Shown: one piece after another, positions 9,632 through 47,737 of the stretch
How positions within the stretch are numbered: the stretch's first letter is position 1
Layout: the number at the start of each line of letters is the position of its first letter
Source of the DNA: an uncultured Clostridia bacterium
GTDB taxonomy: Bacteria > Bacillota > Clostridia > Christensenellales > Borkfalkiaceae
Assembly: GCA_947626105.1 (NCBI GenBank)
Contig: CANQQY010000005.1
Location: 1-64,000 of the forward strand
Length of the DNA stretch: 64,000 nt
Direction of reading: 5' to 3'
Made by a program: the position numbers and the translations under genes
The notes under the pieces: model-generated
Told to the model about the DNA's origin: nothing
What the model saw: the letters and a program-made list of their open reading frames with translations, nothing else
Databases searched by the model: none

Positions 9632-9654
9632 AGTATTATGTCAGACATAATACT
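9632..9654. repeat. dispersed palindrome, copy 1 (perfect)
   Basis: Half-site AGTATTATGTC, one A, then GACATAATACT: an uninterrupted 11-bp inverted repeat around a single base. It lies between the RimK-like gene and the shared terminator. Related copies are at 13278, 35022, 38253 and 47585. Confidence 0.85.
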
Positions 9655-9669
9655 TTGCAAAAGTCAAAA

Positions 9670-9704
9670 AAATCCCCCCGCGAAAGAACTTCGCGGGGGG
9701 ATTT
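9670..9704. terminator. bidirectional terminator between the RimK-like gene and leuS
   Basis: AAATCCCCCCGCGAA and TTCGCGGGGGGATTT form a very stable 15-bp stem around AGAAC, with A-run and T-run flanks suited to both convergent genes. Confidence 0.92.
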
Positions 9705-9718
9705 GATGTTTTCGGTAT

Positions 9719-12148
9719 TCAGGCAACGATCAGATTGACGATGCGCCCTTTGACGACGATGTACTTTACGATTTTCTTTCCCGCAATGCGCTCCTGCACT
9801 TCGGGAAGGGCGGACGCCTGACTTACGATCTCTTCGTCCTGCGCGTCGCTCGGCAGCATCGCTTTGCAGACGATCTTGCTGTTGATCTGTACCGCGTACT
9901 CCTTTTCGGCGAGGACGAGCGCGGCGGGATCTTCGACGGGATACTTCTGTTCAAACACGAATCCTTTTCCGCCCATGATCTCGAAGAGTTCTTCCGAGAA
10001 GTGGGGCGCGCAGGGCGCGAGAAGCAAAATGAGATCCTTCACGGTATCTTTGAAGAGCGCGGCGTTTTTCTCGCCGTTTGCGCCGTCATATTTGTAGAGC
10101 GCGTTGGTGAGCTCCATGAGGCGCGCGATCGCGGTATTGAAAGAGAACGCTTCCATATCCCTCGTCACGCGGCGGATCGTATCGTTCCGTGCGTAGTTGA
10201 GCGCCTTTTCCTCCGCGCCGTAGCCCGCTTTTCCCGTACACTCACGGGCTTTGAGCACGATTTTCTCCACCCTGTCCATAAAGCGGGAGATCGCCTTGAT
10301 CCCGTCGTCGTTCCACGGGCCGCCCTCCGTATAGGAGAATCCGAACATGAGGTAGAGGCGGAAGGCGTCCGAACCGTATTCGTTGACGTATTCGTCGGGG
10401 GAAACGACGTTGCCGTGGGATTTCGACATGCGGTTCCCGTCGGGACCTAAAATGACACCCTGATGGACGAGACGTTTGAAGGGTTCGTCAAAGTCGAGAT
10501 ACCCCATATCCCGCAGCGCTTTGGTGAAGAAACGCGCATATAAAAGGTGCATGCAGGAGTGCTCCGCGCCGCCCACATAGACGTCCACGGGGAGAAGCCT
10601 GTCCACGGCTTCTTTTTCGAAGGGCGCCTTTTCGTTGTGCGGATCCGCATAGCGAAGGTAATACCAGCTCGAACAGACGAAGGTATCGAGGGTATCGGGA
10701 TCCCGTCTTGCGGGGCCGCCGCACTTCGGGCAGACCGCCGACATAAATTTCTCGTTTTTGGCGAGAGGGGACTTGCCGTCCGGGCGGAATTCCACGTCGT
10801 AAGGGAGTCTGACGGGCAGATTTTTTTCGGGAACGGGGACTGCACCGCACTTTTCGCAGTGGATCACGGGGATGGGCGCGCCCCAATAACGCTGGCGGGA
10901 AATGAGCCAGTCTCTCAAGCGGTAATTGACCTTTTTGCCGCCCTTTCCGATCTTTCTGATGTATGCGGCGATCTCGCTCCGCGCCTCTTCGCCGTAAAGT
11001 CCGTCGAATTGGAGAGAACCTACGACGATCCCGTCCTCCGTATAGGGCAGAACGGTCTCCCCGCCCTGTTTTTCAATGACTTTCACGATGGGAAGCCCGT
11101 ATTTCGTTGCAAAAGCAAAATCTCTTTCGTCGTGGGCGGGCACCGCCATCACCGCGCCCGTACCGTAGGAGTAGAGCACGTAATCCGCAAGATAGATGGG
11201 GACTTTTTTTCCGTTTACGGGGTTTGTGCAGTACGCGCCCGTAAAGACGCCCGTCTTTTCGCGCGTGGAAGAGAGCCGCTCGATCTCGCTCGAACGGGAG
11301 GCAAAATCAATATATTGTTCCACGGCTTCGCGCTGCTCGGGCGTTGTGATCTTGCGCGCAAGGGGATGTTCGGGGGAGAGAACGACGTATGTGACGCCGA
11401 ACACCGTATCGGGACGGGTCGTAAAGACGCGGAAAACGTCTCCGCTGTCGCATTCGAACTCGATCTCGCACCCCGTGGATTTTCCGATCCAGTTGCGCTG
11501 CATATTTTTTGTCTTTTCGGGCCAGTCGAGCCCGTCGAGTCCCGAAAGAAGCTCTTCGGCATATTCGGTGATTTTAAAGAACCATTGCGTGAGGTTTTTC
11601 CGTACGACGGGCGTATCGCAACGCTCGCACTTCCCGTCGACGACCTGTTCGTTCGCAAGCACGGTATTGCAGGAAGGGCACCAATTGACCGGCGCTTCCT
11701 TTCTGTATGCAAGTCCCTTCTTGTAGAATTGCAGGAACATCCATTGCGTCCATTTATAGTACTCTTCGGTGCACGTCTTGATCTCCGCCGACCAATCGAA
11801 CATCGCGCCCATCGCTTTGAGCTGCTGTTCCATCGTGGCGATGTTTGCCTCCGTGGAGTCTTTGGGGTGGACGCCCGTCTTGATGGCGTAGTTTTCCGCA
11901 GGCAGGCCGAAAGCGTCGAAGCCCATGGGCTGAAAGACGTTATACCCCTGCATCCGCTTGAAACGTGCGTAAGAATCGGCGGGACCGTAATTGTACCAAT
12001 GCCCGATATGCAGCTTTGCGCCGGAGGGATAGGAGAACATTTCAAGGACGTAAAACTTTTTCTTATCCGTGTCCTTGGGGTCGAAGCGGTTGAACTTCTC
12101 TTTTTCCCAGCGCGTCTGCCATTTTTTTTCGATTGCTTTGATATCCAT
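9719..12148 (-). CDS. leuS: leucyl-tRNA synthetase
   Basis: Charges tRNA-Leu. The 809-residue class I synthetase has the HIGH motif [12 protein letters not shown], a Zn-like cluster (CPSC and CERC), the CP1 editing domain with [13 protein letters not shown], and the KMSKS equivalent [15 protein letters not shown]. The start is set at 12148 because AAGGAGAAACGC precedes that ATG and the promoter predicts a transcript start near 12167, downstream of the earlier in-frame ATG at 12175. It is monocistronic between its own promoter and the bidirectional terminator. Confidence 0.96.
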
Positions 12149-12173
12149 GCGTTTCTCCTTGCTGTTCTTTTCC

Positions 12174-12203
12174 ATTTTACACCAAAGGAGGGGGGCATGT
12201 CAA
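12174..12203 (-). promoter_or_regulatory. promoter of leuS
   Basis: On the minus strand TTGACA (12198-12203) and TAAAAT (12174-12179) are 18 bp apart. No T-box motif is seen in the short leader. Confidence 0.85.
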
Positions 12204-12324
12204 GCATCCTCGCGCAGAAAGAAGTTATTTCACACGTTTGACAGGAAATTTTTGTGCTTCCCTGTGCTCCGTGCGGATCTTGCCCGACGTAAATAAATCA
12301 AAAAAAGAAGCATACAATAATGTC

Positions 12325-13017
12325 GTGGAAGAAATCACCGTATCCGACCAGAGCGGAAACAGTCTCTATATCACATATTTATACAACGCTCTCGCGGGTG
12401 CGCTCTCCCGCAGCGGGGGCGGGGAGGAGTTCCTCTCCACGAACGAAAGGACGGCGCTCCGTATCCATTTGAGGGAGGGGAGCACGGAAATCAGGGAACT
12501 TTTGCGCGAACGGCTCGTCGAGATCGTCGGGATCGGCTACAAATTCCGCTATTTGCAGGAAAAATTGCGGGTCGCGCTCTCCCAAAGGGACAAAAAACTG
12601 CTCTGCGCAGCCCTGATCGCGGCGGATTTCGAGGGGGATAAGGGATACATCGCGCGGAAGATCGGCGACGGAACGCAGTATCATATCGACGGTCTCGTCG
12701 CCTTCCGCCTCGGACCGCTCAAAGAAAAGTGGCAGCACATCGTGGAATACGTCCCCGAGGGCTTCGGCGCGTCCGATCTCAAAGAATTTTGCGATTTTCT
12801 CGTGGCGGAAAGCAAAAACAAGATCTATCTCAAAGGGAATACGGTGTTCGGCGAGAATTTCCGTCCCCTGAAGCGGAGTCTTTTACTCGGGGAAGAGGAC
12901 GCCGAAGCGGAGATCCTGCTCTCCGACGCGGGGTTCGTCTACTGCCTCGGCGACGTGGGCGACGAATTGAGTGATTTTTTACAAAAATTTTATGCGGAGC
13001 GGGCTATATTTTCTTGA
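12325..13017 (+). CDS. YtxC-like protein
   Basis: A protein of about 230 residues, predicted soluble, with the blocks LHIREG-like IHLREGSTEIRELLRERL, KFRYLQEKLRV, AALIAADFEGDKGYI and HIDGLVAFRL. It resembles the putative sporulation protein YtxC, and its position immediately before thrS matches Bacillus and Clostridia, where ytxC precedes thrS; the role is unknown. The frame is open from 12238 (TTG), but no good start with a Shine-Dalgarno exists. The GTG at 12325 is chosen because the homologous part begins there and a TACAAT box lies 6 nt before it. The thrS promoter overlaps its last codons. Confidence 0.6.
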   Translation: MEEITVSDQSGNSLYITYLYNALAGALSRSGGGEEFLSTNERTALRIHLREGSTEIRELLRERLVEIVGIGYKFRYLQEKLRVALSQRDKKLLCAALIAADFEGDKGYIARKIGDGTQYHIDGLVAFRLGPLKEKWQHIVEYVPEGFGASDLKEFCDFLVAESKNKIYLKGNTVFGENFRPLKRSLLLGEEDAEAEILLSDAGFVYCLGDVGDELSDFLQKFYAERAIFS

Positions 13018-13042
13018 CAAACGCCGAAAAACGCTTTACAAT
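13014..13042 (+). promoter_or_regulatory. promoter of the T-box-thrS transcript
   Basis: TTGACA (13014-13019) and TACAAT (13037-13042), spacing 17 bp. It overlaps the 3' end of the YtxC-like gene. Confidence 0.88.
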
Positions 13043-13049
13043 AGATTTA

Positions 13050-13265
13050 CTTAAAGACAAGTAGCGTCCGAGGTTTTTCCCAGAGAGCGGATCCAAGGCT
13101 GGAAGACCCGCAGAAAGCTCGGAACCGTGAAACCGCTTTATTGGATACATTATCATACGTGAGCGGCCTCCGAACGGAGGCAATTAAGGTGGAACCGCGC
13201 AAATGGAATTTGCGTCCTTAAAATGAACCCGAAAGGGCAGTTTTAAGGACGATTTTTTATTTTTT
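13050..13265 (+). promoter_or_regulatory. T-box leader (threonine) of thrS
   Basis: A classic T-box riboswitch that senses uncharged tRNA-Thr. Visible parts are AGTAGCG and CAGAGAGCGG of stem I, a GGCTGGAAGA apical element, a CCGAG/CTCGG helix, the candidate specifier ACC (13132-13134) within GAAACCGC, the T-box AATTAAGGTGGAACCGCG (13182-13199), and a terminator CGTCCTTAAAA / TTTTAAGGACG (13213-13251) followed by a T-rich run to 13265. An ACC specifier agrees with the downstream threonyl-tRNA synthetase. Confidence 0.95.
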
Positions 13266-13277
13266 CGCCATGTGCGA

Positions 13278-13297
13278 AGTACTATGTCAGACATAAT
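13278..13297. repeat. dispersed palindrome, copy 2 (at the thrS ribosome site)
   Basis: AGTACTATGTC, A, GACATAAT: 20 bp of the dispersed element lie between the T-box terminator and thrS and run directly into the GGAGGT Shine-Dalgarno at 13298. The upstream flank TGTGCGA resembles the flank TTTGCA of other copies. Confidence 0.85.
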
Positions 13298-13309
13298 GGA
13301 GGTAGAAAC

Positions 13310-15268
13310 ATGAAAATTTCACTCAAAAACGGGGATCTTCTCGAGGTGGCGGAGGGCGCTTCCTGTGCGGACGCCGCGCTTGCGATCTCGGAAGGGCTTG
13401 CGAGGAACGCCGTTGCGGCGAAGGTCAACGGGGAACTCGTCGATCTGTCGCATCCGCTTTCGGAAGGCGACAGCCTCGAGATCGTCACGCTCAAAGACGA
13501 GGACGGGCTCAAAGTCTACCGTCACACCTGCGCCCATGTGCTTGCGCAGGCGCTCAAAACCGTCTATCCCACCTGTAAACTTGCGATCGGCCCCGTGATC
13601 GAAAACGGCTTTTATTACGACGTTGATTTCAAAACGCCCATCACGATGGAAGATTTCTCCAAGATCGAAGCGGAGATGAAGGCGATCATCAAGAGCAATC
13701 TTCCCATCAAGCGGTTCACGCTTCCGCGGGACGAGGCGATCGCCCTCATGGAAAATTTCAGCGAGGATTATAAGGTCGAACTCATCAAAGATCTTCCCGA
13801 GGACGCGGAGATCTCCTTCTACAAGCAGGGAGCCTTTACCGATCTTTGCAAGGGGCCGCACCTTCCTTCGACGGGGAAGATCAAGGCGTTCAAGCTCGTC
13901 TCCATCGCGGGCGCGTATTGGAGAGGGGATTCGAACAAGAAGATGCTCACCCGTATTTACGGCACGGCGTTTGCCAAAAAGGACGAGGTGGACGCCTATA
14001 TCGCCCGTCTCGAAGAGGCGAAAAAGCGCGACCATAATAAACTCGGGCGCGACCTCGGGATCTTTATGACGAGCGACGTCATCGGGCAAGGCCTTCCCAT
14101 TCTCATGCCGAAGGGCGCGAAGATCCTTCAAATTCTCACCCGTTTCGTCGAGGATGAAGAGGCAAAGCGCGGCTTCATGATCACAAAGACCCCCAATATG
14201 GCGAAATCCGACCTCTACAAGATCTCCGGGCACTGGGCGCATTACCGCGACAAGATGTTCGTTCTCGGCGAGATCGACGAAAAAGGCGAGGCGAAGAATA
14301 AAGACGAAGAAATCGTGGCGCTCCGTCCCATGACCTGCCCGTTCCAATATCAAATTTATAAGAACGGTCTGAAATCTTACCGCGATCTGCCCTGCCGCTA
14401 TTCGGAGACCGCGACGGAGTTCCGCAACGAGGCTTCGGGCGAGATGCACGGGCTCATCCGCATCCGCCAATTTACTCTTTCCGACGGGCACATCATCTGC
14501 ACTAAGGAACAGGTGGAAGGGGAGTTCAAACGTTGCCTCGATCTTTCCTATTATATCCTCGACTGCCTCGGAATGCGGCAGGACGTCACCTTCCGCTTCT
14601 CCAAGCGCGGGAAATCCAAGTCCGATAAGTATATCGACGACGACGAGGCGTGGAATGCGACGGAAGCCATGATGAAGAACATTCTCGACGATCTCAAACT
14701 CGATTATGTGGAAGCGGACGACGAAGCCGCCTTTTACGGTCCCAAGCTCGACGTCCAGACGAAGAATGTCTACGGAAAAGAGGATACGCTCATCACCATC
14801 CAGATCGACTTTGCCGCGGGGCACAGCTTCGGCATGGAGTATGTGGACGCAGACGGCGTCCGCCGTACGCCTTACGTCATCCACCGCAGCTCGATCGGCT
14901 GTTACGAGAGGACGCTCGCCATGCTCATCGAAAAGTATGCGGGCGCGTTCCCGCTCTGGTTTGCGCCGGAGCAGGTCAAAGTCCTTCCCGTCACGGACAG
15001 AGCGGCGGATTACGCAAAAGAGCTTGTCGAAGAGCTCAACGAGGTGGGGATCCGCGCCTCCGCAGACTATCGCAACGAGAAGATCGGCAGAAAGATCTTC
15101 GACGCCGAGCAGGAAAAGGTTCCCTATAAGCTCGTCGTCGGCGACAAAGAGATGGAGGACGGCAGCGTCTCCGTCCGCAAGCGCGGCGCAGGGGATATCG
15201 GCTCCATGACAAAGGACGACTTCATCGCCCTCGTCGTCGAAGAGGACGAAAAGAAAGTGATCTTCTGA
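13310..15268 (+). CDS. thrS: threonyl-tRNA synthetase
   Basis: Charges tRNA-Thr. The 652-residue class II enzyme has an N-terminal TGS domain (residues 1-62), the editing domain (HTCAHVLAQALKTVYP, then GPHLPSTGKIKAFKLVS and the YWRGD segment), the catalytic core with RPMTCPFQYQIYKNG (Zn-binding Cys), RIRQFTLSDGHI and YGPKLDV, and a C-terminal anticodon-binding domain from about residue 555. The start ATG is preceded by ATGGAGGTAGAAAC. It is regulated by the T-box upstream. Confidence 0.97.
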   Translation: MKISLKNGDLLEVAEGASCADAALAISEGLARNAVAAKVNGELVDLSHPLSEGDSLEIVTLKDEDGLKVYRHTCAHVLAQALKTVYPTCKLAIGPVIENGFYYDVDFKTPITMEDFSKIEAEMKAIIKSNLPIKRFTLPRDEAIALMENFSEDYKVELIKDLPEDAEISFYKQGAFTDLCKGPHLPSTGKIKAFKLVSIAGAYWRGDSNKKMLTRIYGTAFAKKDEVDAYIARLEEAKKRDHNKLGRDLGIFMTSDVIGQGLPILMPKGAKILQILTRFVEDEEAKRGFMITKTPNMAKSDLYKISGHWAHYRDKMFVLGEIDEKGEAKNKDEEIVALRPMTCPFQYQIYKNGLKSYRDLPCRYSETATEFRNEASGEMHGLIRIRQFTLSDGHIICTKEQVEGEFKRCLDLSYYILDCLGMRQDVTFRFSKRGKSKSDKYIDDDEAWNATEAMMKNILDDLKLDYVEADDEAAFYGPKLDVQTKNVYGKEDTLITIQIDFAAGHSFGMEYVDADGVRRTPYVIHRSSIGCYERTLAMLIEKYAGAFPLWFAPEQVKVLPVTDRAADYAKELVEELNEVGIRASADYRNEKIGRKIFDAEQEKVPYKLVVGDKEMEDGSVSVRKRGAGDIGSMTKDDFIALVVEEDEKKVIF

Positions 15269-15320
15269 TCCCGCGGAATGCCGTTTGGCGTGAAAAATAG
15301 AAAATCTTTCCGAAAAACAG

Positions 15321-15349
15321 TTGACAAAAGGGTTTTTGTGTGGTAAAGT
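15321..15349 (+). promoter_or_regulatory. promoter of the infC-rpmI-rplT operon
   Basis: TTGACA (15321-15326) and TAAAGT (15344-15349) with 17 bp spacing. Confidence 0.82.
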
Positions 15350-15355
15350 AATTCA

Positions 15356-15489
15356 GTCAAGCAGAGGTAAACCCTTCTCTCCGCGATCGCATGGGCGGTG
15401 CGGGTCAATGAATTTTCCGCGAATGTCACGGGATCTCCGTGCGCAACAAAGTTCAACGGGTTTGTCTATGCAAACCCGTTTATTTTTTT
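15356..15489 (+). promoter_or_regulatory. L20-leader-type attenuator of infC-rpmI-rplT
   Basis: The leader of about 140 nt ends in an intrinsic terminator, AACGGGTTTG (15455-15464) with CAAACCCGTT (15471-15480) and then TATTTTTTTG, placed only 10 nt before the infC start. In Firmicutes this operon is controlled by L20 binding its leader and promoting termination, and position and architecture fit. The upstream part has GCGATCGC and CGGTGCGGG helices that could be the L20 mimic; I did not verify the fold. Confidence 0.7.
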
Positions 15490-15498
15490 GAGAGGATC

Positions 15499-16017: not shown

Positions 16018-16074
16018 AATCAAAAAGCGAACATTTCGCGAAAAGAAATTTGAATCATTTGGAGGAAAACAGAT

Positions 16075-16275: not shown

Positions 16276-16290
16276 CGGAGGGCATCGGAT

Positions 16291-16641: not shown

Positions 16642-16649
16642 CCAAACGA

Positions 16650-16674
16650 AAGCCTTTCCGAGAAAGGCTTTTTT
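16650..16674 (+). terminator. terminator of infC-rpmI-rplT
   Basis: AAGCCTTTC (16650-16658), loop CGA, GAAAGGCTT (16662-16670), then a T-run to 16674. The next start codon is 3 nt beyond it, and the 3' arm contains AAAGG, the only Shine-Dalgarno-like stretch before that start. Confidence 0.88.
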
Positions 16675-16677
16675 GTC

Positions 16678-17427: not shown

Positions 17428-17430
17428 TTT

Positions 17431-18165: not shown

Positions 18166-18182
18166 AAAAGCAAAAAAAAGGA

Positions 18183-35009: not shown

Positions 35010-35021
35010 GACGGTTTGTGA

Positions 35022-35044
35022 AGTATTATGTCACGCATAATATT
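35022..35044. repeat. dispersed palindrome, copy 3 (diverged centre)
   Basis: AGTATTATGTC then ACGCATAATATT: one arm intact, the other with two changes. The flank TTTGTGA on the left resembles the flanks of copies 1, 2 and 5. Confidence 0.75.
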
Positions 35045-36889: not shown

Positions 36890-38040
36890 TGGAAAAAGTC
36901 GTCATTCTCCGCTATGCGGAGATCCATCTGAAAGGCAAAAACCGCGGGTATTTCGAGCGTGTTTTCTCCACGAATCTGGAACGCGCGCTCAAAGGGCTTC
37001 GCCACGAACTCCGCCGCACGAGCGGCAGGTACCTTGTCGCCGCATTCGACGAGGAGAAATCGGACGAGATCATGCGGCGCGTGTCCCGCGTCTTTGGAGT
37101 CCATTCCTATTCGGCGGGACTTCTCGTTTCAAACGACATTGAGAGTATTTTCGAAGCCGCAAAGCTCGTCGCGCCTGAGAGCGGCTCCTTCAAAGTGCAA
37201 ACGCACCGCGGAGATAAGCATTACCCGCTCACTTCCATGGAGATCAGTGCCGAGATCGGCGGAAGGCTACTCGGCGAGAATCCCGCTCTCCGCGTGGACG
37301 TCCATACGCCAAAGCATACCGTCTACATTGATATCCGCGAAGGCGGAAAAGCGCTCGTGTTCGGCTCCTTCGAGGACGGTTTGCACGGAATGCCCGTTTC
37401 TACCGCGGGGAAGGGGCTTCTCCTCATTTCGGGCGGGATCGACTCTCCCGTGGCGGGCTATATGATGGCGAAGCGCGGGCTCACTGTGGAAGCGCTGCAT
37501 TTCCACAGCTACCCTTATACCAACGAGGGCGCAAAGGAGAAGGTCGTATCTTTGGCGAAGATCCTTTCCGAATATACGCTCGTCCACCGTATCACCGCGG
37601 TGAGCGTAACGCATATTCAGGAAGAGATCCACAAAAAATGCGCCGCAGAGCTCAACGTGACTCTTTTGCGGCGGTTCATGTTCCGCATTGCCGAGAAGAT
37701 CGCAGGGCGGGAGGGGGCGAAATGCCTCGTGACGGGAGAGAGCCTGGGGCAGGTCGCAAGCCAGACGTTGGAGGGGCTTACTTCCTCGAACGCGGTCGTC
37801 TCGCTACCCGTTCTTCGTCCCTTGATCGGCTTTGACAAAGAGGATATCATCGCCGTCGCGAAAAAGATCGGCACGTACGAGATTTCCGTTTTGCCCTATG
37901 AGGATTGCTGTACCGTCTTTCTGCCCGATTTTCCCGCGATAAGACCCTCGCTTTCTTATATCGAGGAAGAGGAGAAAAAGCTCGATGTCGACGCGCTCGT
38001 GGAAGAAGCTCTTTCGACGCGCGAGGTAATTCAGCTCTGA
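36889..38040 (+). CDS. thiI: tRNA 4-thiouridine synthase ThiI (no rhodanese domain)
   Basis: A 383-residue enzyme that adenylates and thiolates U8 of tRNA. A ferredoxin-like N-terminus (RYAEIHLKGKNRGYFE), a THUMP domain (about residues 60-165), and a PP-loop domain with LISGGIDSPVAGYMMAKRG. It stops after YIEEEEKK and lacks the C-terminal rhodanese domain of the enterobacterial protein, as is usual in Firmicutes, where the partner desulfurase acts directly. AAGGAA precedes the ATG. Its last 10 bp overlap the end of the convergent PBP gene. Confidence 0.94.
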   Translation: MEKVVILRYAEIHLKGKNRGYFERVFSTNLERALKGLRHELRRTSGRYLVAAFDEEKSDEIMRRVSRVFGVHSYSAGLLVSNDIESIFEAAKLVAPESGSFKVQTHRGDKHYPLTSMEISAEIGGRLLGENPALRVDVHTPKHTVYIDIREGGKALVFGSFEDGLHGMPVSTAGKGLLLISGGIDSPVAGYMMAKRGLTVEALHFHSYPYTNEGAKEKVVSLAKILSEYTLVHRITAVSVTHIQEEIHKKCAAELNVTLLRRFMFRIAEKIAGREGAKCLVTGESLGQVASQTLEGLTSSNAVVSLPVLRPLIGFDKEDIIAVAKKIGTYEISVLPYEDCCTVFLPDFPAIRPSLSYIEEEEKKLDVDALVEEALSTREVIQL

Positions 38041-40217
38041 TCTTCCCACCATTTTTCGGGCAGAGAAGTTTCGTTTCCGACGTAGACGGGAGAAAGATAG
38101 ACCGTTTCTCCTTCGTGCCCGCGAAAGACAGGCGTCACGCTGTAACGGTAGCTTTCCCCTGCGCGGACGGAGTTGTCGCAGATATATTTTTGATATTTTC
38201 CCTGATAAATCGTGGTGACCGTGCCGCGATTTTCTCTTTTTATGATGTAATCATAGTACTCTGTCTGACATAATACTATCTTTACCGACCCATTTATGAT
38301 GGAAATCGTCGGCATATCAATTTGGGGAGAGGAATAGCGCGTGCTCTTTTCCAAGGGGAGCGCGCTTTTTTTGAAGAGCTCTTTTCTGTCGGTGCAGAGC
38401 GGGGAAAGGGGATCCGAGAGGCAGATGCGGTGATTTTTTTCATATTCCTGCATGTCGATCTTCACTTCCTCGATCCCTTCGCACATGGAAAAATCCTGCG
38501 GCGATCCGCCTTCGTAGATGGTGCGGAGAACTTGGAAGGCAATATTTGCAGGCTTCCCTCCGCCCGAAACGCTGACGGGGGTATTATCTCTGTTGCCCAT
38601 CCACACCGCTACGGTGTCCGCCGTCGTGTAGGCGATCGTGTAAGCGTCCGTATTTCCGCATTTTCCCTCGGCGGTCCCCGTCTTTGCGCAGACGTCATAG
38701 GGAAGAGAACGCAGTTTTTTCGCCGTTCCTTCCTTGACCGCCGTTTTGAGCATGTCGTTCACGAGATAGCTCGTCTCTTCCGAAAAGACGCGCGTGCCCT
38801 GCGGCTTGTGTTCGTAGAGAACCCTGCCTTTGCCGTCCTCGATGCGGGCGATCGCCGAAGAGGGGGCATAGTTTCCGCCCTTTGCGAGGGTCGCATAGCC
38901 GTCCGAAAGGGCGGGCAGCGCAAATCCTTCCTTCATGCCTCCCAAGGCCAGCGCAAGCGAACGGTCGTCCCGTTCGGTCGGAAGCCCCATTTTTTCGAGA
39001 TAGCCCGCCGCCCTGTCGCATCCAAGGCTATTCAAAATCTTGACCGCGGGGATATTGACGCTGTGGGCGAGCGCGTATCTCGCACTCATATACGTCCCGC
39101 TCGCCCCGCCCGCGTCGTCCGGGCAATATCCGCCGAAATCCGTCTTTTCGTCGAGAATGGGCGTCGCGGGAGAGATGATGTCCTCTTCTATGGCGGGAGC
39201 GTATACCAAAAGAGGCTTCAACGTGGACGCGGGAAGCCGTTTCGGCGTGCCGCACGTCGAAAAGAGCGCCTTGATCCCGTCCGTACGGTTATCCCGCACG
39301 AGGACGCACACGTCGGAATCGACGTCCGTCTCTTCGAGCTTTTGTTGCAGAGAAGGATCGAGAAAGGTATAGACGGAGATCGTGCCGAAAGTTCCCGTCT
39401 CCGCGTCGGGAAGGAGATTTGAAAGTTCGTCGAAAACGACGGAAAGATAGCTGTCCGCATGCTCTCTGCGGCAGGGGGACAGGGGCAGGGAGACGCTTTT
39501 CGCCTCTTCATAGACGCAGTCGGGGATACGTCCCTGTTCCTTCATCAAAGAGAGGACAAAATCGCGGCGTTTTTTGCACGCTTCGGCGTTGCGGAAGGGG
39601 GAATAGCGGTTCGGAGAGCGCACGAGGGCGGCAAGCATGGCGCTTTCGGCGGGAGAAAGCTGTTCCGCTTCCTTGCCGAAATAAAATTCCGAAGCGTTTG
39701 CGATCCCGAAGATATCGTGCCCGAAATAGATGGAATTGAGGTAGAGCTCGATGATCTCGTCCTTCGAGTATTTTTTTTCGAGCTGTCTTGTAAGTTTGAA
39801 CTCTCTTAGCTTTCTTGCGATCGTCTTTTCGCTCGAAAGGTGGGTGTTTTTGATCAGTTGTTGGGAGATCGTGGAAGCGCCCTCGCGAAAGGAAAACGTC
39901 TTGATGTTTTTGAGCGTCGCCCCGGCGATCCGCCTGTAATCGAGTCCGTGATGGCTGTAAAACCGTTTATCTTCGACGGCAATGAATGCTTGCGGCACAT
40001 GGGCGGGAAGCTCGGAGAGCGCAACGCTTTTCCGTTTCGCACCCTCGATCTGTTCGCCGTTCCCGTCATACAGGCGGATGCAGGCGGTGGAGAGGGCGAG
40101 TTTGTTTCTGTCGAGCCGTACATTGGCAGTGACGCCGAAATAATAGAGAAGAAGAGCGAGTATCAGGACGAGCAGAACGCCCGCCGCGATCAGGAATACT
40201 TTTAAGACACGTTTCAT
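38031..40217 (-). CDS. class A penicillin-binding protein (transglycosylase-transpeptidase)
   Basis: A bifunctional wall polymerase of 728 residues. Membrane anchor at residues 3-25; GT51 domain with EDKRFYSHHGLDYRRIAGA, EGASTISQQLIKN and KILEL-like DEIIELYLNSIYFG; transpeptidase with STLK (catalytic Ser), SVN and KTGTAEG; then a C-terminal beta-rich extension of about 110 residues resembling FN3. Part of that extension (IVLCQTEYYDY) is encoded by a copy of the dispersed palindrome. The start at 40217 (MKRVLKVFL) is chosen because it places the anchor at the N-terminus; no strong Shine-Dalgarno precedes it, and the frame is open to 40286. Confidence 0.9.
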   Translation of the reverse strand: MKRVLKVFLIAAGVLLVLILALLLYYFGVTANVRLDRNKLALSTACIRLYDGNGEQIEGAKRKSVALSELPAHVPQAFIAVEDKRFYSHHGLDYRRIAGATLKNIKTFSFREGASTISQQLIKNTHLSSEKTIARKLREFKLTRQLEKKYSKDEIIELYLNSIYFGHDIFGIANASEFYFGKEAEQLSPAESAMLAALVRSPNRYSPFRNAEACKKRRDFVLSLMKEQGRIPDCVYEEAKSVSLPLSPCRREHADSYLSVVFDELSNLLPDAETGTFGTISVYTFLDPSLQQKLEETDVDSDVCVLVRDNRTDGIKALFSTCGTPKRLPASTLKPLLVYAPAIEEDIISPATPILDEKTDFGGYCPDDAGGASGTYMSARYALAHSVNIPAVKILNSLGCDRAAGYLEKMGLPTERDDRSLALALGGMKEGFALPALSDGYATLAKGGNYAPSSAIARIEDGKGRVLYEHKPQGTRVFSEETSYLVNDMLKTAVKEGTAKKLRSLPYDVCAKTGTAEGKCGNTDAYTIAYTTADTVAVWMGNRDNTPVSVSGGGKPANIAFQVLRTIYEGGSPQDFSMCEGIEEVKIDMQEYEKNHRICLSDPLSPLCTDRKELFKKSALPLEKSTRYSSPQIDMPTISIINGSVKIVLCQTEYYDYIIKRENRGTVTTIYQGKYQKYICDNSVRAGESYRYSVTPVFRGHEGETVYLSPVYVGNETSLPEKWWEDQS
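38253..38279. repeat. dispersed palindrome, copy 4 (inside the PBP gene)
   Basis: ATAGTACTCTGTC, T, GACATAATACTAT: 13-bp arms with two mismatches, the longest copy. It lies in frame inside the C-terminal extension of the PBP. Confidence 0.8.
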
Positions 40218-40332
40218 CCATGACAGTATGCGCGATCGCGGAAAATATAAGCATAAAAAGGGGGAGCACGGCGGGACAAGCCGCATGTTTTGGACGGAAC
40301 GTAAAATCTTTTATGAAATCAAACGGCTTTTG

Positions 40333-40361: not shown

Positions 40362-40369
40362 GACTCCGT

Positions 40370-41080: not shown

Positions 41081-42387
41081 AATACCACATCGTCACTTAC
41101 GGTTGCCAGATGAACGTTCACGAGTCCGAAAAGATCGCGGGGATCCTGCGCGAGAAGGGCTATACCGAAGAATCGGACATCGACGGCGCCGACATCATCG
41201 TCTTTAATACCTGCTGTATCCGCGAAAACGCCGAAAATCATGCGTTCGGCAATATCGGCGCGCTCAAACAGCGGAAGCGGGAGAACAAAGACCTCATCAT
41301 TGCGGTCGGCGGGTGCATGGCGCAGGAAGAGGGGAAGGCCGCGCTCATCAAGGAGCGGTTTCCCTTTGTGGATATCCTCTTCGGCACGCATAATCTTTCG
41401 GAGCTCGGCGCGCTCATCGACCGAAAACGGTCGCAGAAAAAGCGGGTCTTTTCTCTCAAAGAGGCGCGGGAAGAGACGGAGGACGGCATTACGCCCGTCC
41501 GTACGGGCTATCCCGGGGCGTGGGTCAATATCATGTACGGCTGCAACAATTTCTGTTCCTATTGCATCGTGCCGTATGTGCGCGGAAGGGAGCGTTCCCG
41601 CCGCGCGGAGGACGTGGTCGGCGAGGTAGAGTCCCTCGTAAAAGAGGGATATAAGGAGATCACCTTGCTCGGGCAGAATGTCAACTCCTACCGCGGCGAG
41701 GACGGGACGGATTTCCCCGCCCTTCTCGACCGCTGCGCTTCCGTCGAAGGGGAGTTCCGTCTCCGCTTTATGACTTCCCATCCGAAAGATTTTTCCGCGG
41801 CGCTCGTGTCGGTCGTTAAAAAACATAAAAAGATCTGCAACCAGATCCATTTGCCCGTGCAGTCGGGTTCCAACCGCATTCTTTCCCTTATGAACAGGCG
41901 CTACACGCGCGAAAAATACCTCGAAGAGATCACGCTTTTGAGGCGTGAGATCCCCGATTGCGCCGTGACGACGGATATCATCGTCGGCTTTCCCACCGAA
42001 ACGGAGGAGGATTTTCAAGAGACGCTATCCCTCGTGAATGAGGCGGACTTTTCTTCGGCGTTCATGTTCATTTACTCCCCGCGCACGGGGACGAAGGCGG
42101 CGGCGATGGAGGGACAGATCGAGGCGTCCGTCTCCAAAGACAGGCTTTCCCGCCTCATTGAAACCGTCAACGCCCGCACGCGGGAGAAGAGCGCTGCTTA
42201 CATCGGCAAGACTGCGGAGATCCTCTGCGAGGGGTACGACGAGAAGAAAAAATTGTATCTCGGGCGGGACGAGTACGGCAGAATGGGGTACTTTGCGAGC
42301 GGGAACAACAGGATCGGTGAGTTTGTTTCGCTCAAAATCGACCGCGCGAACGGCATTTCCCTCTACGGGGAACCGGTCGGAGAATAA
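41077..42387 (+). CDS. miaB: tRNA-2-methylthio-N6-dimethylallyladenosine synthase
   Basis: A radical SAM methylthiotransferase of 436 residues acting on A37 of tRNA after MiaA. N-terminal UPF0004 domain with YGCQMNVHESE, TCCIREN and GGCMAQ cluster cysteines; radical SAM motif CNNFCSYC followed by VPYVRGRERSR; C-terminal TRAM domain (KTAEILCEGYDEKKK). The ATG at 41077 overlaps the sirtuin stop; the frame upstream is not homologous. miaA three genes on completes the same modification. Confidence 0.96.
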   Translation: MKYHIVTYGCQMNVHESEKIAGILREKGYTEESDIDGADIIVFNTCCIRENAENHAFGNIGALKQRKRENKDLIIAVGGCMAQEEGKAALIKERFPFVDILFGTHNLSELGALIDRKRSQKKRVFSLKEAREETEDGITPVRTGYPGAWVNIMYGCNNFCSYCIVPYVRGRERSRRAEDVVGEVESLVKEGYKEITLLGQNVNSYRGEDGTDFPALLDRCASVEGEFRLRFMTSHPKDFSAALVSVVKKHKKICNQIHLPVQSGSNRILSLMNRRYTREKYLEEITLLRREIPDCAVTTDIIVGFPTETEEDFQETLSLVNEADFSSAFMFIYSPRTGTKAAAMEGQIEASVSKDRLSRLIETVNARTREKSAAYIGKTAEILCEGYDEKKKLYLGRDEYGRMGYFASGNNRIGEFVSLKIDRANGISLYGEPVGE

Positions 42388-42399
42388 CGGAGGAAGAAA

Positions 42400-44952
42400 A
42401 TGGGACTTTCACCCATGATGGAGCATTGGCGCAAGGTCAAAGACGCTCATCCCGATTGTGTAATCTTTTATCGCCTCGGCGACTTTTACGAGATGTTTTT
42501 CGAGGACGCCGAAAAGGCAAGCAAGATCCTCGATCTGACGCTTACGGGCAGAGACTGCGGCCAGAAAGAGCGGGCTCCCATGTGCGGCGTGCCCTATCAT
42601 GCCGCGGATAATTACATCCAAAAGCTCCTCGAGGCGGGGGAGAAAGTCGCGATCTGCGAACAGCTCTCCGATCCCAAAGAGAGCAAGGGGATGGTAGAGA
42701 GGGACGTCATCCGCGTCGTTACGCCGGGGACGGTCACCGAAGAGAGCCTTCTGGACGCGAGAAAGAATAATTTCATCGCCTGCGCTTTCAAGAGCGGAGA
42801 AAACTATGCGCTTGCATGGGCGGATATCACGACGGGGGAGCTCAACTGCTCCGAGGAAGAGAGCCTGGACGCCGTCATCTCCGCGCTTCTCAATCTTTCG
42901 GTCGCGGAGATCATCTGCAACGATGAATTTCTCTTTGCCGTTAAAGATCGGCTGGAGCTCGAACGCAACCTTCTTCCCGCGCTCTCCTGTTATCTGCCCT
43001 ATGCCTTTCAGCGCGCAAACGCAGAAAAATGCCTGAAAGACCAGCTCGCCGTCCCCTCTATGGACGTGCTGGGGCTTGGCGGGCACGAAAACGCCGCCAT
43101 CGCCGCGGGCGCTCTTGTCGCATACCTCATCGAAACGCAAAAACATGCGCTCAAAAACATGAATTCGCTCCGTTTTGCGGAGGGTTCGCAATATATGACG
43201 CTCGACCCCACCGCGGTCAGGAATTTGGAGATTTTGAGGAACAACGGCGACGGAAAACGCTTCGGGTCTCTCTTGTGGCTCCTCGACAAGACGAAAACGG
43301 GAATGGGGGCGAGAAAACTTGCGTCCGTTCTCATCAGCCCCTTAAAAGAGATCGAAAAGATCAACAGAAGGCTGGACGGCGTGGAGGAACTCTTCCGCGC
43401 GGGCGTCGTGCGCATGGGACTTGCGGATATGCTCGGCGGTATGCAGGATATCGAGCGGCTCACGGGGCGCATCTCAAACGGAAATCTTCAACCGCGGGAT
43501 TGTCTGGCGCTCTCCGCCTCTCTTGCGATCGTCCCGAACTTGCGTTTTCAGCTTTCGGGATTCAATTCCCCGATCTTGAAATCGGTCGCGGGGCGCATGG
43601 TCGATACCAAGGAGATCTGCGCGCTCATCGACGGCGCGATCGACCCCAAGGCGACCACGCTCAAAGACGGCAACTATATCAAAGAGGGCTATAACGAACA
43701 GCTCGATTCCCTGCGCAACGTCAAAAAGCACAGCACGCGGCTCCTTGCGGAGCTCGAAGCGCGCGAGCGGGAGCGCACGGGCATCAGAACGTTGAAAGTA
43801 GGATTCAACCGCGTGTTCGGATATTACATCGAGGTCAGCAACTCTTTCAAAGACCGCGTCCCGTTTTCCTATACGCGCAAGCAGACCTTGACGAACGGGG
43901 AGCGGTATATCTGCGACGAACTCAAAGAGCTCGAAACGAAAATTTTGGGAAGCGACGATCAGGCGCAGCGGCTCGAAGAGCATCTCTATCATGAGCTTCT
44001 CGCGATCTTGGAGAAAAACATTCCCGTTTTCCAGAAGGTCTCGGGCGCGGTCGCCGAACTCGATTGCCTCGTCTCTTTTGCGACGGCGGCAAAGGAAAAT
44101 AAATACGTCCGTCCGCAGCTCGTCGAAGAGGGGCAGTTGGAGATCCGAGAGGGGCGGCACCCCGTTGTGGAAGCGATCTCCCGCGAGCGGTTCGTTCCCA
44201 ACGACTGCGTGCTCGATACTTCCGAAAACCGCACGATGATCTTGACGGGACCCAATATGGCGGGGAAAAGCACCTATTTAAGGCAAAACGCGCTCATCAC
44301 GCTCATGGCGCATGTGGGCTGTTTCGTGCCCGCAAAGAGCGCGGTGATCCCCGTGACGGACAGGATCTTTACGAGGATCGGGGCGAGCGACAATCTGATC
44401 CTCGACAGAAGCACGTTCATGGTGGAAATGACGGAAGTCGCAAGCATTCTGCGCAACGCCACGAGCCGAAGCCTGCTCATTCTCGATGAAGTAGGCCGCG
44501 GGACGAGCACCTTCGACGGGCTCTCCATCGCATGGGCGGTCATCGAATATCTCACCGAACGGGTGCGCGCAAAGACGCTGTTTGCCACCCACTACCATGA
44601 GCTCACGGAGTTGGAAGGAAAGCTCGAGGGCGTCAAAAACTATAAGATCAACGTCAGGGAGATCGCGGGGAGCATCGTCTTTTTGCGTACGATCGTGCGC
44701 GGGGGAGCCTCCCGCTCCTTCGGCGTAGAGGTCGCGGCGCTTGCGGGCGTTCCCGAGGCGGTCACGAGCCGCGCGAAGTCCATTTTACGCTCGCTCGAAA
44801 GAAAAGAGGGCAAACGGGCGGCGCCCGAAGAGGAACCGGAGGAAGAGCAAACGGTCGCTCTGAAAAAGGAGCTCTCCGAATTGAACCTCGATCTGCTCAC
44901 GCCCATGCAGGCGCTCGCGCTGCTCTCGGAATGGAAGGAGAAAGTCAAATGA
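42400..44952 (+). CDS. mutS: DNA mismatch repair protein MutS
   Basis: Recognises mismatches and starts repair. At 850 residues it has the mismatch-reading GDFYEMFFEDAE, the connector and lever domains, and the ATPase with Walker A GPNMAGKSTYLRQ, Walker B LLILDEVGRGTSTFDG and ATHYHELTELE. The C-terminal part after GRAKSIL-like RAKSILRSLE includes an acidic linker and LDLLTPMQALALLSEWK for tetramer or MutL contact. CGGAGGAAGAAA precedes the start. mutL overlaps its stop. Confidence 0.97.
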   Translation: MGLSPMMEHWRKVKDAHPDCVIFYRLGDFYEMFFEDAEKASKILDLTLTGRDCGQKERAPMCGVPYHAADNYIQKLLEAGEKVAICEQLSDPKESKGMVERDVIRVVTPGTVTEESLLDARKNNFIACAFKSGENYALAWADITTGELNCSEEESLDAVISALLNLSVAEIICNDEFLFAVKDRLELERNLLPALSCYLPYAFQRANAEKCLKDQLAVPSMDVLGLGGHENAAIAAGALVAYLIETQKHALKNMNSLRFAEGSQYMTLDPTAVRNLEILRNNGDGKRFGSLLWLLDKTKTGMGARKLASVLISPLKEIEKINRRLDGVEELFRAGVVRMGLADMLGGMQDIERLTGRISNGNLQPRDCLALSASLAIVPNLRFQLSGFNSPILKSVAGRMVDTKEICALIDGAIDPKATTLKDGNYIKEGYNEQLDSLRNVKKHSTRLLAELEARERERTGIRTLKVGFNRVFGYYIEVSNSFKDRVPFSYTRKQTLTNGERYICDELKELETKILGSDDQAQRLEEHLYHELLAILEKNIPVFQKVSGAVAELDCLVSFATAAKENKYVRPQLVEEGQLEIREGRHPVVEAISRERFVPNDCVLDTSENRTMILTGPNMAGKSTYLRQNALITLMAHVGCFVPAKSAVIPVTDRIFTRIGASDNLILDRSTFMVEMTEVASILRNATSRSLLILDEVGRGTSTFDGLSIAWAVIEYLTERVRAKTLFATHYHELTELEGKLEGVKNYKINVREIAGSIVFLRTIVRGGASRSFGVEVAALAGVPEAVTSRAKSILRSLERKEGKRAAPEEEPEEEQTVALKKELSELNLDLLTPMQALALLSEWKEKVK

Positions 44953-46829
44953 GCATCAACATTCTGACACCCGACGTCTATAACCGCATCGCGGCGGGGG
45001 AAGTCGTCGACAGACCGTATTCCGTCGTCAAGGAACTCGTCGAAAATTCGATCGACGCGGGCGCGACGGACATCTCCGTCGAGATCGAGGAGGGCGGTAA
45101 AAAGCTCATCCGCGTCACGGACAACGGCTGCGGGATCCCCAAGAATGAATTGAAAAAGGCATATCTTCCGCATGCGACGAGCAAATTGCAGAGCGCGGAG
45201 GATCTGTTCACGGTAGCGACCCTCGGGTTCCGCGGCGAGGCGATCGCTTCGATCGCGTCCGTCTCCCGCATGGAGATCGTTTCCGACGCGGGCGAAGGGG
45301 CGTTTTCGCTCGCCTGCGAGGGCGGAGCTTGCGGCGACACCCAAGCGGCGCCGGGGGCGAAAGGGACGGAGATCACCGTACGGGATCTCTTTTTCAACAC
45401 GCCCGCCCGTCTCAAATTTCTGAAATCGGACAGTCAGGAGGAGGGGGACGTCTCCAATATGATGGCGCGCTTTATCCTCTCCCGTCCCGGGATCGCTTTT
45501 ACCTATACGGTCGGCGGAAAAGTGAAATACCGTTCGTTCGGGGACGGGCTCGCCTCTGCGCTTGCCGTCGTCTACGGCGCGTCTGTCCTCGAAAATTGCC
45601 ATGAGATCTCTGCGGACAAGCACGGCATCCGCCTCTCGGGCTATATCGGAAACAGAAATTTTTCCAAACCCAACCGCACCTATCAGAGCCTTTTCGTCAA
45701 CGGACGGTATGTTGTCAACCAAACGGTGGGCGCGGCCGTCACGAACGCTTACGCCGCCTATCTCATGAAGCGGCAATATCCGTTTTACGTCCTCTTTTTG
45801 GACGTTCCGCAGGAGATCGTGGACGTCAACGTCCATCCGAATAAGGCGGACGTGCGGTTTCAGGACAATCAGATCATCTACGGGAGCGTCTACTCCGTCG
45901 TCTCTTCTGTGCTCGACGGAAATTCCCGCGCGCTCGAATACCTTGTTTCCGCAAAGAGGGAAGCGCAGGGTTCCGAAGCGCAGGCTGTTCCCGAAGTGCA
46001 GGCGGCGGCCGAACCGCAAAAACCCGTCGAAAGCACTCAAATGACCTACGAAGAGGCAAAAAAAGAGCTGGAATTCGACGTCTCTCCCCTGAAAGGGAGA
46101 CCTTCCGAACCCCGTTTTTTCGAGCCCGAACCTTCCCGTTTCGAAGTCCGCTCGTCCGCGTCCGAAGTGCGGATGGACAGACAGGAGGACTTTTTCGAAG
46201 AGAACCAACGCTTTTTGCGCGAACAGGCAAAACCCAAACAGGAAAAAGTAGACGTTGCGGCCCTTACCTTCAAGGGGGAGCTCTTCCGCACCTATCTCTT
46301 TTATGAAGCGGGGGACGTCGCTTACATTGTCGACCAGCACGCCGCGCACGAGCGGCTGATCTACGACAGATTGCAGGAAAAGCTCGCCTCACGCAAGGTC
46401 GTCTCCCAGCCCATGCTCGTTCCCTATCTTTTGGAACTGAATGCGGCGGAACACGCCTTTTTCGTCAAAAACATCCCGCTTCTTGAAGAGATCGGCTTCG
46501 GCATTGAGGAGTTCGGCGGGAATTGCATCAAAGTTTCCGCCGTGCCGACCGACCTTTTGGGCATCGACCTTCCGTCCTTTTTCGGGGAAGTTCTCTCCTC
46601 GATGGAGTCTCTGCGCGCCATCCGTCTCAATACGCTGCTGAAAGATAAGCTGGCGTCCGCCGCTTGCAAAGCCGCCGTCAAGGGGGGCGAAAAACTCACA
46701 GAGGATGAGGTGGAAGCGCTTCTTGCGCGGATGGACGGAGATATGGGGCTCAAATGCCCGCACGGGAGACCTGTCGCCGTCATGGTGAAGAAGAGCGAAA
46801 TGGAGAAACTCTTCAAACGGATCGTATGA
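44949..46829 (+). CDS. mutL: DNA mismatch repair protein MutL (endonuclease type)
   Basis: A GHKL ATPase of 626 residues: RIAAGEVVDRPYSVVKELVE, NSIDAGATDI, DNGCGI and GFRGEAIASIASV. After a variable linker (about residues 335-430) the dimerisation domain carries the endonuclease motif DQHAAHERLIYD and CPHGRPVAVM, the nicking activity used where MutH is absent. AAGGAGAAAGTCAA precedes the ATG at 44949, which overlaps the mutS stop; miaA overlaps its own stop. Confidence 0.97.
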   Translation: MSINILTPDVYNRIAAGEVVDRPYSVVKELVENSIDAGATDISVEIEEGGKKLIRVTDNGCGIPKNELKKAYLPHATSKLQSAEDLFTVATLGFRGEAIASIASVSRMEIVSDAGEGAFSLACEGGACGDTQAAPGAKGTEITVRDLFFNTPARLKFLKSDSQEEGDVSNMMARFILSRPGIAFTYTVGGKVKYRSFGDGLASALAVVYGASVLENCHEISADKHGIRLSGYIGNRNFSKPNRTYQSLFVNGRYVVNQTVGAAVTNAYAAYLMKRQYPFYVLFLDVPQEIVDVNVHPNKADVRFQDNQIIYGSVYSVVSSVLDGNSRALEYLVSAKREAQGSEAQAVPEVQAAAEPQKPVESTQMTYEEAKKELEFDVSPLKGRPSEPRFFEPEPSRFEVRSSASEVRMDRQEDFFEENQRFLREQAKPKQEKVDVAALTFKGELFRTYLFYEAGDVAYIVDQHAAHERLIYDRLQEKLASRKVVSQPMLVPYLLELNAAEHAFFVKNIPLLEEIGFGIEEFGGNCIKVSAVPTDLLGIDLPSFFGEVLSSMESLRAIRLNTLLKDKLASAACKAAVKGGEKLTEDEVEALLARMDGDMGLKCPHGRPVAVMVKKSEMEKLFKRIV

Positions 46830-47737
46830 AAAAACTTCTTGTCATCTGCGGGCCGACCGCTTCGGGGAAAACCGCGCTTGCGGTGGAGTGCGCCCGCCTC
46901 TTAGACGGGGAGATCGTCTCGTGCGACGCGCTTCTCGTCTATCGCGGCTTGAATATCGGCACTGCGAAGCCCACCGAAGAGGAAAGGAAGGGGATCCCGC
47001 ACCATTTGATCGACGTCGCGGATCCCACCGAAAATTTTTCGGTGAGCAACTTCGAAAGACTCGCGCTCGGCGCGGTCGAGGACATTTTTTCCCGCGGCAA
47101 GACGCCGATTCTCTGCGGGGGAACGGGGTTTTATCTCAACGCCGTTCTCTTTTCCCATGGATTCGGTCACGCGCCCGCAGACAAGTCGGTGCGCGAGAAA
47201 TACGAAAAGATCGCGGAAGAACAGGGCAGGGAAGCGCTGCACGCCCTTCTCGCCGAGGTGGACAGGGAGAGTGCGGAAAAGCTCCACTGCAACGATGTCA
47301 AGCGCGTCGTCCGCGCGCTCGAAATCTATGAGCTTACGGGAAGGAGAAAGTCGGAACAACATGACTTAGACCTTCCCCGTTACCCCTACGACGCCTTCTG
47401 TTTCCGCTATCCGCGCGAGGAGCTGTACCGCAGGATCGAACGGCGAGTAGACGCCATGATGGCGGCGGGGCTCGTGGAAGAGGTCGAGGGATTGATTGCA
47501 TCGGGCGTCCCCGAAAATGCCCAGTGCATGCAGGGGATCGGATACAAAGAAGTCCTTGAAGGCTTGAAAAATCACGATTTGCAGAGTACTATGTCAGACA
47601 TAATCAAGAAAAATACCAGAAATTATGCGAAGCGGCAGGAGACATTTTTCAAAAAAATGCCCAATTTACAGGGGTTGGAGCCGAGTTCTCCCGAAAAAGC
47701 CGCGCAGGAGGTCGTAAAGTTATATGAATGCGAATGA
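46826..47737 (+). CDS. miaA: tRNA dimethylallyltransferase
   Basis: Adds a dimethylallyl group to A37 of tRNA. The 303-residue protein has the P-loop GPTASGKTALAVECA, SCDALLVYRGLNIGTAKPT, HHLIDVADP, GGTGFYLNAV and YPREELYRRI. The region between GIGYKEVLEGL and KKNTRNYAKRQETFFKK, which normally holds a short acidic helix, contains QSTMSDII encoded by a copy of the dispersed palindrome. The ATG overlaps the mutL stop; the ynbB start lies 14 nt inside its end. Confidence 0.96.
   Translation: MKKLLVICGPTASGKTALAVECARLLDGEIVSCDALLVYRGLNIGTAKPTEEERKGIPHHLIDVADPTENFSVSNFERLALGAVEDIFSRGKTPILCGGTGFYLNAVLFSHGFGHAPADKSVREKYEKIAEEQGREALHALLAEVDRESAEKLHCNDVKRVVRALEIYELTGRRKSEQHDLDLPRYPYDAFCFRYPREELYRRIERRVDAMMAAGLVEEVEGLIASGVPENAQCMQGIGYKEVLEGLKNHDLQSTMSDIIKKNTRNYAKRQETFFKKMPNLQGLEPSSPEKAAQEVVKLYECE
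47585..47604. repeat. dispersed palindrome, copy 5 (inside miaA)
   Basis: AGTACTATGTC, A, GACATAAT: identical over 20 bp to copy 2 at thrS and in frame in miaA, where it codes STMSDI. The left flank TTTGCAG again matches the family flank. Confidence 0.88.

Follow-up and report, generated by a model that had tools for sequence, protein, structure and literature searches.

Polar palindromic sites around the replication terminus of uncultured Clostridia and a PadR-type candidate for their binding protein

Introduction

What maintains a low-copy palindrome that recurs in and between unrelated genes? The question is raised by the window analyzed here, i.e., the whole stretch of 64,000 nucleotides (positions 1 to 64,000, forward strand) of contig CANQQY010000005.1 in assembly GCA_947626105.1, from an uncultured Clostridia bacterium (Christensenellales; Borkfalkiaceae), in which such a palindrome occurs five times. 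A first-pass annotation, made from the letters of the window, offered a mobile mini-palindrome, a chromosome-organizing or uptake site, or the sites of an unknown regulator as candidates. Herein, it is reported that the palindromes cluster around the replication terminus, coincide there with a dif-like repeat, invert their polarity at this repeat, and, in the loci examined, include one in front of the gene of a PadR-type winged-helix protein with a probable C-terminal membrane module (PadR-TM), which in several families lies near xerS or dif. The reading we favor, with a probability of roughly 0.6, is that the palindromes are polar terminus-domain sites bound by PadR-TM, through which the terminus would be held at the membrane or the division site. 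Little is settled about how the terminus is organized where MatP, Tus, and RTP are absent; the literature on ZapT and on MatP-type proteins, as far as its available parts extend, concerns enterics, Vibrio, and Caulobacter, and the fork traps reviewed are of the Tus and RTP kinds (PMC10331603, partial text). Genomes, contigs, loci, and families are denoted by G, C, L, and f numbers, where G000 is the genome of the window (1.645 Mb, 32 contigs), C5 is the contig of the window, and f1 is the family of G000.

Sites in the Window and Across Genomes

All five reported copies are present in the window, at 9632, 13278, 35022, 38255 (previously given as 38253), and 47585, and the second and fifth share the same 20 bp (AGTACTATGTCAGACATAAT), the former within the leader of thrS and the latter inside miaA. 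The similarity of the left flanks that had been noticed is genuine, and the site is asymmetric, with the consensus TTTnCAwAGTACTATGTCWGACATAAT, obtained by unsupervised expectation maximization (EM) blind to the replication arm from 53 sites of G000, G077, and G078. The chance test that had been proposed likewise came out in favor of the motif: at ≤3 mismatches, the window holds eight strand matches, against a mean of 0.00 and a maximum of 0 in 100 dinucleotide shuffles.

Site 1 (9634..9661, −) is a perfect 23-bp palindrome with an odd center and lies between convergent rimK-like and leuS genes; it is nearly symmetric, scoring 41.6 bits on the minus and 37.8 bits on the plus strand, and its orientation is accordingly weak, only marginally better as minus. 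The other four copies read in the plus direction. Site 2 (13271..13298, +; 36.6 bits) occupies the thrS leader just 5′ of the start codon at 13310, and site 3 (35015..35042, +; 33.8 bits) is intergenic (34963/35169). Site 4 (38248..38275, +) lies inside a PBP1A-type gene (38031-40286, −), whose ortholog also carries a site in G077 and G078, and site 5 (47578..47605, +) inside miaA (46754-47737, +), at a place corresponding to sites in G077 and G078.

Throughout G000, 19 forward and 21 reverse matches (≤3 mismatches) merge into 26 sites, whereas the reversed pattern yields none at the same threshold. The sites are confined to C1, C5, C6, and C22, that is, 4 of the 32 contigs and 457 kb of 1,645 kb. 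The count in relatives, which the first-pass annotation had recommended together with that in the genome, was also positive: at ≤2 mismatches the motif is found in 25/25 members of the genus searched, including G000, and in 0/16 genomes from other families of the order; the non-f1 genomes G105 and G189 gave no site matches. Reversed-pattern controls outside G000 gave 0 or 1 match per genome, one genus member having one. Some sites are grouped closely, in tandem groups of three or four about 20–50 bp apart in G007 (C2:62434-62532 and C7:71759-71849) and in pairs at C1:121865/121888 in G000 and C1:239151/239172 in G007.

A mobile mini-palindrome, chance, or coding constraint might be entertained for an element of low copy number with some copies inside genes. 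These explanations are already contradicted, however, and retain next to no probability: the shuffle expectation and the reversed controls speak against chance, and dnaE, glgB, and coaE orthologs that lack the site show no gap in the alignment around it, i.e., no trace of insertion, and have amino-acid changes at the site itself; the comparison for scpB, in which the G000 frame used carries a stop, has no bearing on this. Furthermore, different reading frames are used, miaA reading AGT ACT ATG and coaE AAG TAC TAT, and PBP1A carries the site on the other strand. Because the site-less orthologs are gap-free, residues change, and several frames are used, the selected feature looks like the DNA; neither the mobile element nor the coding constraint named at first pass as a refuting explanation agrees with these alignments. 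The uptake site proposed there fits poorly too, with only about 10–26 copies confined to one region.

Location at the Replication Terminus

In G000, C5 and the initial 32 kb of C6 have a positive GC skew; over the next few kb the skew is close to zero, and it is negative across the rest of C6, C22, and most of C1. The dnaA gene and the canonical parB lie on C4 and C14, respectively, both free of sites. The skew flip on C6 holds an XerS-like recombinase gene (C6:30159-31241), a dif-like repeat (C6:31519), and a convergent pair of palindromes (C6:31794 and 31812). The best NCBIfam model for the recombinase is XerS (E 2.5e-55), with 187.7 bits, which is under the cut-off of 267. The dif-like repeat (AACTATTCGTAAAA-6-TTTTACGAATAGTT) was derived from xerS upstream regions and, at ≤7 mismatches, is located 41–665 bp upstream of xerS in 18/18 loci, with 0 for the reversed control; a known Firmicutes dif consensus had no match in G000. 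The palindrome itself (≤6 mismatches) is found ≤1 kb upstream of xerS in 15 of these 18 loci; among the remaining three, L086 has it at −1974, and L092 and L093 have diverged copies only (17.7 and 22.4 bits).

The dif-bearing contigs hold 9 to 24 sites each, and on seven of the eight a site copy lies ≤0.7 kb from dif. The skew flips at dif or within ~10 kb of it, with a noisy signal in G065 and a weak one in G320. The longest contig used, G258:C1 (823,664 bp), has dif at 592.3 kb and carries all 14 matches of its genome between 548.8 and 818.3 kb, i.e., from −44 to +226 kb of dif, the right-most being 5 kb from the contig end; its far-left 548 kb has no sites. The sites occupy roughly 100–300 kb around dif, the range on some other contigs being limited by contig ends.

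The module resembles XerS/difSL in having a single XerS-like recombinase next to dif; it is unlike it in its arms and 6-bp spacer, as opposed to the 11-bp center of difSL (PMC5357621), and in the padR-TM gene that several families have nearby. At ≤~3 kb from xerS, G000 (C6:28049-28657, −), G077 (C1:108195-108782), and G078 (C18:153875-154462) carry a gene for what is, by eye, a LexA-like repressor. LexA was set aside as a binder of the palindromes, its operator being different. In L079, unlike in its close relative L078, an additional ~500 bp that includes a small open frame lies between dif and xerS. Apart from the terminus, the 95–104 kb region of C3 in G000 (L067, L068, and L070) has weak ParB-like matches in the vicinity of a DnaA-like match and may be a mobile element; one of these ParB-like matches, by eye, resembles a ParB/DNA-methyltransferase fusion.

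Polarity of the Sites

On both replichores, the strong half of the site, TTTnCAwAGTACTATGTC, mostly faces the origin and the weaker half, GACATAAT, faces dif. Polarity was counted on eight dif-located contigs with 109 sites, from which 8 sites ≤1 kb from dif and 5 ties were excluded; 86 of the remaining 96 point at dif and 10 do not (naive binomial P 3e-16, orthologous sites not being independent). The fraction is 57/61 in the five genomes outside the consensus derivation (G007, G015, G065, G258, and G320), 46/47 in the genus of the window (G000:C6, G007, G015, and G065), and 40/49 in the other four genomes (G258 and G320 of the sister genus g18, G077, and G078). On the dif-less contigs of G000, sites scored by EM agree with the orientation expected from skew in 7/8 cases on C5, 3/3 on C22, and 2/3 on C1, where one site is nearly tied in orientation scoring.

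Site orientation tracks the replication arm, not the gene strand. Site 4 is antiparallel to its PBP1A-type gene, yet in step with the arm, and the orthologs in G077 and G078 carry the site in the same antiparallel arrangement. Moreover, a site at C5:94.0 kb in G000 (+, left arm) corresponds to one at 171.6 kb in G078 (−, right arm), the polarity being kept through the switch of arm. Comparing position with strand and replication, as had been advised at first pass, therefore reveals sites that cluster at the terminus and flip at dif, and the chromosome-organizing site suggested there was right in kind.

Polarity towards dif on both arms is also what guides of a DNA translocase would display, in the manner of FtsK-orienting polar sequences and SpoIIIE recognition sequences (KOPS/SRS) for FtsK/SpoIIIE; PadR-TM would then compete for such a guide or be regulated by it. 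KOPS/SRS-type guides are short (about 8 bp) and frequent. The architecture-imparting sequences (AIMS) are likewise given as 8-bp sequences in the available part of their description. The motif studied here exceeds 20 bp, numbers only about 10–26 copies around the terminus (26 in G000), and contains the PadR operator elements described below; translocase guides are accordingly an improbable account.

The main rival of the favored reading is an independently evolved fork trap, in which PadR-TM dimers would stop replication forks one-sidedly and allow entry to the terminus but no exit. The oppositely oriented sites flanking dif (86/96) agree with it, and the structure of the site as overlapping palindromes recalls the A and B halves of RTP ter sites, in which a fork meeting the strongly bound half first is blocked (PMC10331603). 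The same comparison turns against the trap, because the strongly conserved half here meets the forks coming from the origin, which is the wrong way round if conservation reports affinity, and because reversed sites occur on one arm, apparently in common to three genomes. Tus and RTP fork traps also have fewer sites than are found here. Further points on both sides concern the presumed binder and lead us to regard a fork trap as unlikely, albeit as the main alternative.

A PadR-type Candidate Binder

The likely binder is PadR-TM, in which a PadR winged-helix domain is combined with a probable membrane module at the C-terminus. Its gene in G000 (C6:83713-85884) is preceded by a promoter-like region, recognized by eye, that directly follows a site, and its counterparts in G077 and G078 have the same arrangement. 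A site of 23–41 bits stands in front of padR-TM in 24/24 loci of the genus examined and is always antiparallel to the gene. At its N-terminus the protein has a winged-helix domain of the PadR type, and a long, variable linker connects this domain with hydrophobic segments towards the C-terminus. The PadR domain is matched by Pfam PF03551 (E 2.9e-19 to 6.3e-20; 69–71 bits against a cut-off of 27), and the best match to PadR chains in the PDB has an E-value of 1.2e-37. Of 55 frames scanned for hydropathy, in which G000 is counted twice, 52 show hydrophobic segments C-terminal to the PadR domain, usually as four main peaks by eye, and these segments mostly begin 121–138 residues from the C-terminus. 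The three frames without them are L145 and L149 (both truncated) and L193 (wrong frame), and L130 has an untypical pattern and may be read in the wrong frame.

PadR-TM is matched in 25/25 genus members, with partial frames only in G002 and G011. Within f1, the number of sites roughly tracks the protein: G110 has neither a match to PadR-TM nor a site, G351 and G331, in which PadR-TM matches are poorer, have 2 and 6 strand matches, and G360 and G223 have 17 and 18, the E-values being only roughly comparable across the family owing to partial alignments.

The site carries elements of known PadR operators. TACT is present in the strong half of 48/58 sites of ≥20 bits, the consensus has ATGT-N3-ACAT, and the symmetric form of the site, AGTACTATGTCWGACATAGTACT, contains TACT-N11-AGTA, although most natural weak halves are AATn rather than AGTA. 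The Clostridioides difficile protein cdPadR1, of the PadR-s2 type, binds GTACTAT(N2)ATTATA(N)AGTA, which includes the inverted repeat TACT(N11-12)AGTA, in the promoter of its own gene (PMC5050560). It shares with PadR-TM the PadR domain and autoregulation, which is proposed in the present case, and elements of its operator recur in part in the site; it differs in being a small protein and a proposed stress-gene regulator, for which the accessible part of the report gives no link to the terminus, and in the weak half, which here is mostly AATn. In other PadR operators, ATGT and ACAT are about 8–10 apart (PMC3506622), and the spacing in the present site is shorter.

PadR-TM might also be an ordinary membrane-integrated transcription factor whose regulon lies near the terminus by happenstance. 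The site before padR-TM in every locus examined and promoter-proximal sites such as site 2 before thrS are as such a regulator would have them. Many sites, however, lie within genes or between convergent genes (according to a crude gene caller), their orientation obeys the arm even in a gene on the opposite strand, as in site 4, and the genes beside the sites of the window are unrelated housekeeping genes wherever a family was found, so that we give this explanation only a slim chance. What stands of the unknown regulator suggested at first pass is that a PadR-domain protein probably binds the site and controls its own gene; the data carry that suggestion no further.

The binder also bears on the fork trap. 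A site before the gene of the presumed binder parallels Tus and RTP, which autoregulate via a ter site before their own genes (PMC10331603), and Bacillus cereus PadR proteins are highly similar to RTP in overall topology and dimer organization (PMC3506622). On the other side, the RTP family itself, tried as a binder, had no match over the cut-off in any of 61 genus genomes, the one weak match having an E-value of 0.092. The fork trap is further disfavored by the membrane module of PadR-TM, which is not known to have a counterpart in Tus or RTP.

Occurrence in Other Families

Among the 16 genomes from other families, seven match PadR-TM at E ≤1e-10, with long frames in four (G026, G029, G033, and G037) and short PadR proteins in three. 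An order-wide search gave matches at E ≤1e-20 in 200/297 genomes, short PadR proteins included. The neighborhoods of the best 30 loci were checked, namely 8 of f1 (one being G000 again) and 22 of other families. The site accompanies all 8 f1 loci, 0/8 of which have xerS nearby, and none of the 22 others. By contrast, 20 of these 22 have an XerS-like match and/or a dif-like repeat within ~1.5 kb, a count that has no random-locus control; by family, adjacency to xerS or dif is seen in 12/12 loci of f3, 6/7 of f6, 1/1 of f8, 1/1 of f24, and 0/1 of f32, so the linked loci come mostly from two families. In four further loci, G033 (f10) has both xerS and dif, and G037, G028, and G030 have neither. 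In L092 and L093, padR and xerS are divergent, with the dif-like repeat between them. In L092, padR-TM (6775-8340, −) is seemingly split between frames, for which a pseudogene or an assembly error is possible.

A search for diverged sites (≤3 mismatches) in the genomes of L092 and L093 found two in one and none in the other. An exact count of gapped palindromes, with 25 words listed, brought up the known family for G000:C6 and not for the controls G077 and G078, and its silence for G026 and G029 is uninformative, as these positive controls were missed too. In G029, a perfect palindrome, TTTTACATCTTTATGATGTAAAA (C1:265181-265203), directly precedes padR-TM at ~0.6 kb from dif; it may possibly be the operator of that lineage and occurs once only at ≤3 mismatches within the 103 kb read. 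L093 and the f1 proteins read share the recognition helix YSALKRLE, and other families mostly have YSCLKRLE or YNQLKRLE (L127-L150, L175-L204, and L093 compared, L201 not read), a difference that could be a specificity switch.

A Model for Terminus Handling

In the proposed mechanism, PadR-TM would bind one site before its own gene, resulting in autoregulation, and would occupy the remaining sites along the terminus. Its C-terminal module, with about four presumably transmembrane segments, would anchor it in the membrane and fasten the terminus domain there or to the division site, which may keep dif and XerS in place as sister termini separate. This tethered terminus is favored because the membrane module is conserved, the sites blanket the terminus, and padR-TM, in several families, lies near the dimer-resolution module.

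A close parallel is MatP/matS of Escherichia coli and its relatives, in which 13-bp sites occur in 23 copies over an 800-kb domain (PMC3330122). Both systems have palindromic sites repeated ~20 times in a terminus domain and a dedicated DNA-binding protein, a candidate in the present case; short palindromes are concentrated in the terminus domain here as well, with the sites on dif-less contigs unplaced. The present system differs in its organisms, in the PadR winged-helix and membrane module of its candidate binder, and in its extended and strongly polar sites. RTP/Ter and Tus/Ter share with it the polar sites inverted between the arms around dif and the site before the gene of the presumed binder, from which RTP/Ter departs in the points raised above, i.e., the protein family, the direction of the strong half, and the reversed sites. 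ZapT and the Z-ring-associated proteins of Caulobacter are, by the available descriptions, alike in that a non-MatP protein links the terminus to the division apparatus; the candidate here has a membrane module of its own.

Several observations weigh against the tethered terminus. A simple tether has no need of polarity. Ten of the 96 sites point away from dif, and six of these are two apparently orthologous right-arm sites in each of G077 (C1:153758 and 160889), G078 (C18:196523 and 203686), and G258 (C1:641038 and 646919); the segment bearing them in G077 and G078 corresponds to a left-arm segment in G000. Several genomes have sites on dif-less contigs, e.g., C2, C7, C13, and C14 of G007, C1, C2, C15, and C21 of G015, and C4 and C10 of G077, whose position relative to the terminus is not established. 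The multi-copy site family is seen only in f1 and the named relatives, and genomes of other families that carry PadR-TM are without this site sequence. The f3 loci have xerS nearby but no dif, and in G026 the distance from padR-TM and xerS is ~54 kb to the dif-like repeat and ~70 kb to the skew flip. In 7/24 padR-TM loci (L127, L131, L138, L143, L146, L147, and L149), the longest open frame starts at or before the site, and a later start is assumed. Finally, a single-sequence structure model of PadR-TM from L093 reached a mean pLDDT (predicted local distance difference test) of 44.7 and was not used.

Perspective

The sites and their putative binder have the appearance of a system, not described before, that handles the chromosome end; in the open literature, as represented by titles and the beginnings of abstracts, nothing relevant was found that ties PadR proteins to the chromosome or replication terminus or that combines transmembrane proteins of this kind with segregation or division. 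A more specific version is put forward tentatively, namely that an integral-membrane protein with an RTP-like (PadR) fold recognizes directional sites along the two arms and fixes the terminus to the membrane near XerS/dif, in a system that may be old in the order and independent of MatP, Tus, and RTP. If true, polar marking of the terminus and physical tethering would be combined in one system. The likeness between the PadR and RTP folds would bear on the origin of terminator proteins from transcription regulators. For a large group of uncultured gut Clostridia, the finding defines the site exactly, offers a candidate protein, and makes a connection with dimer resolution.

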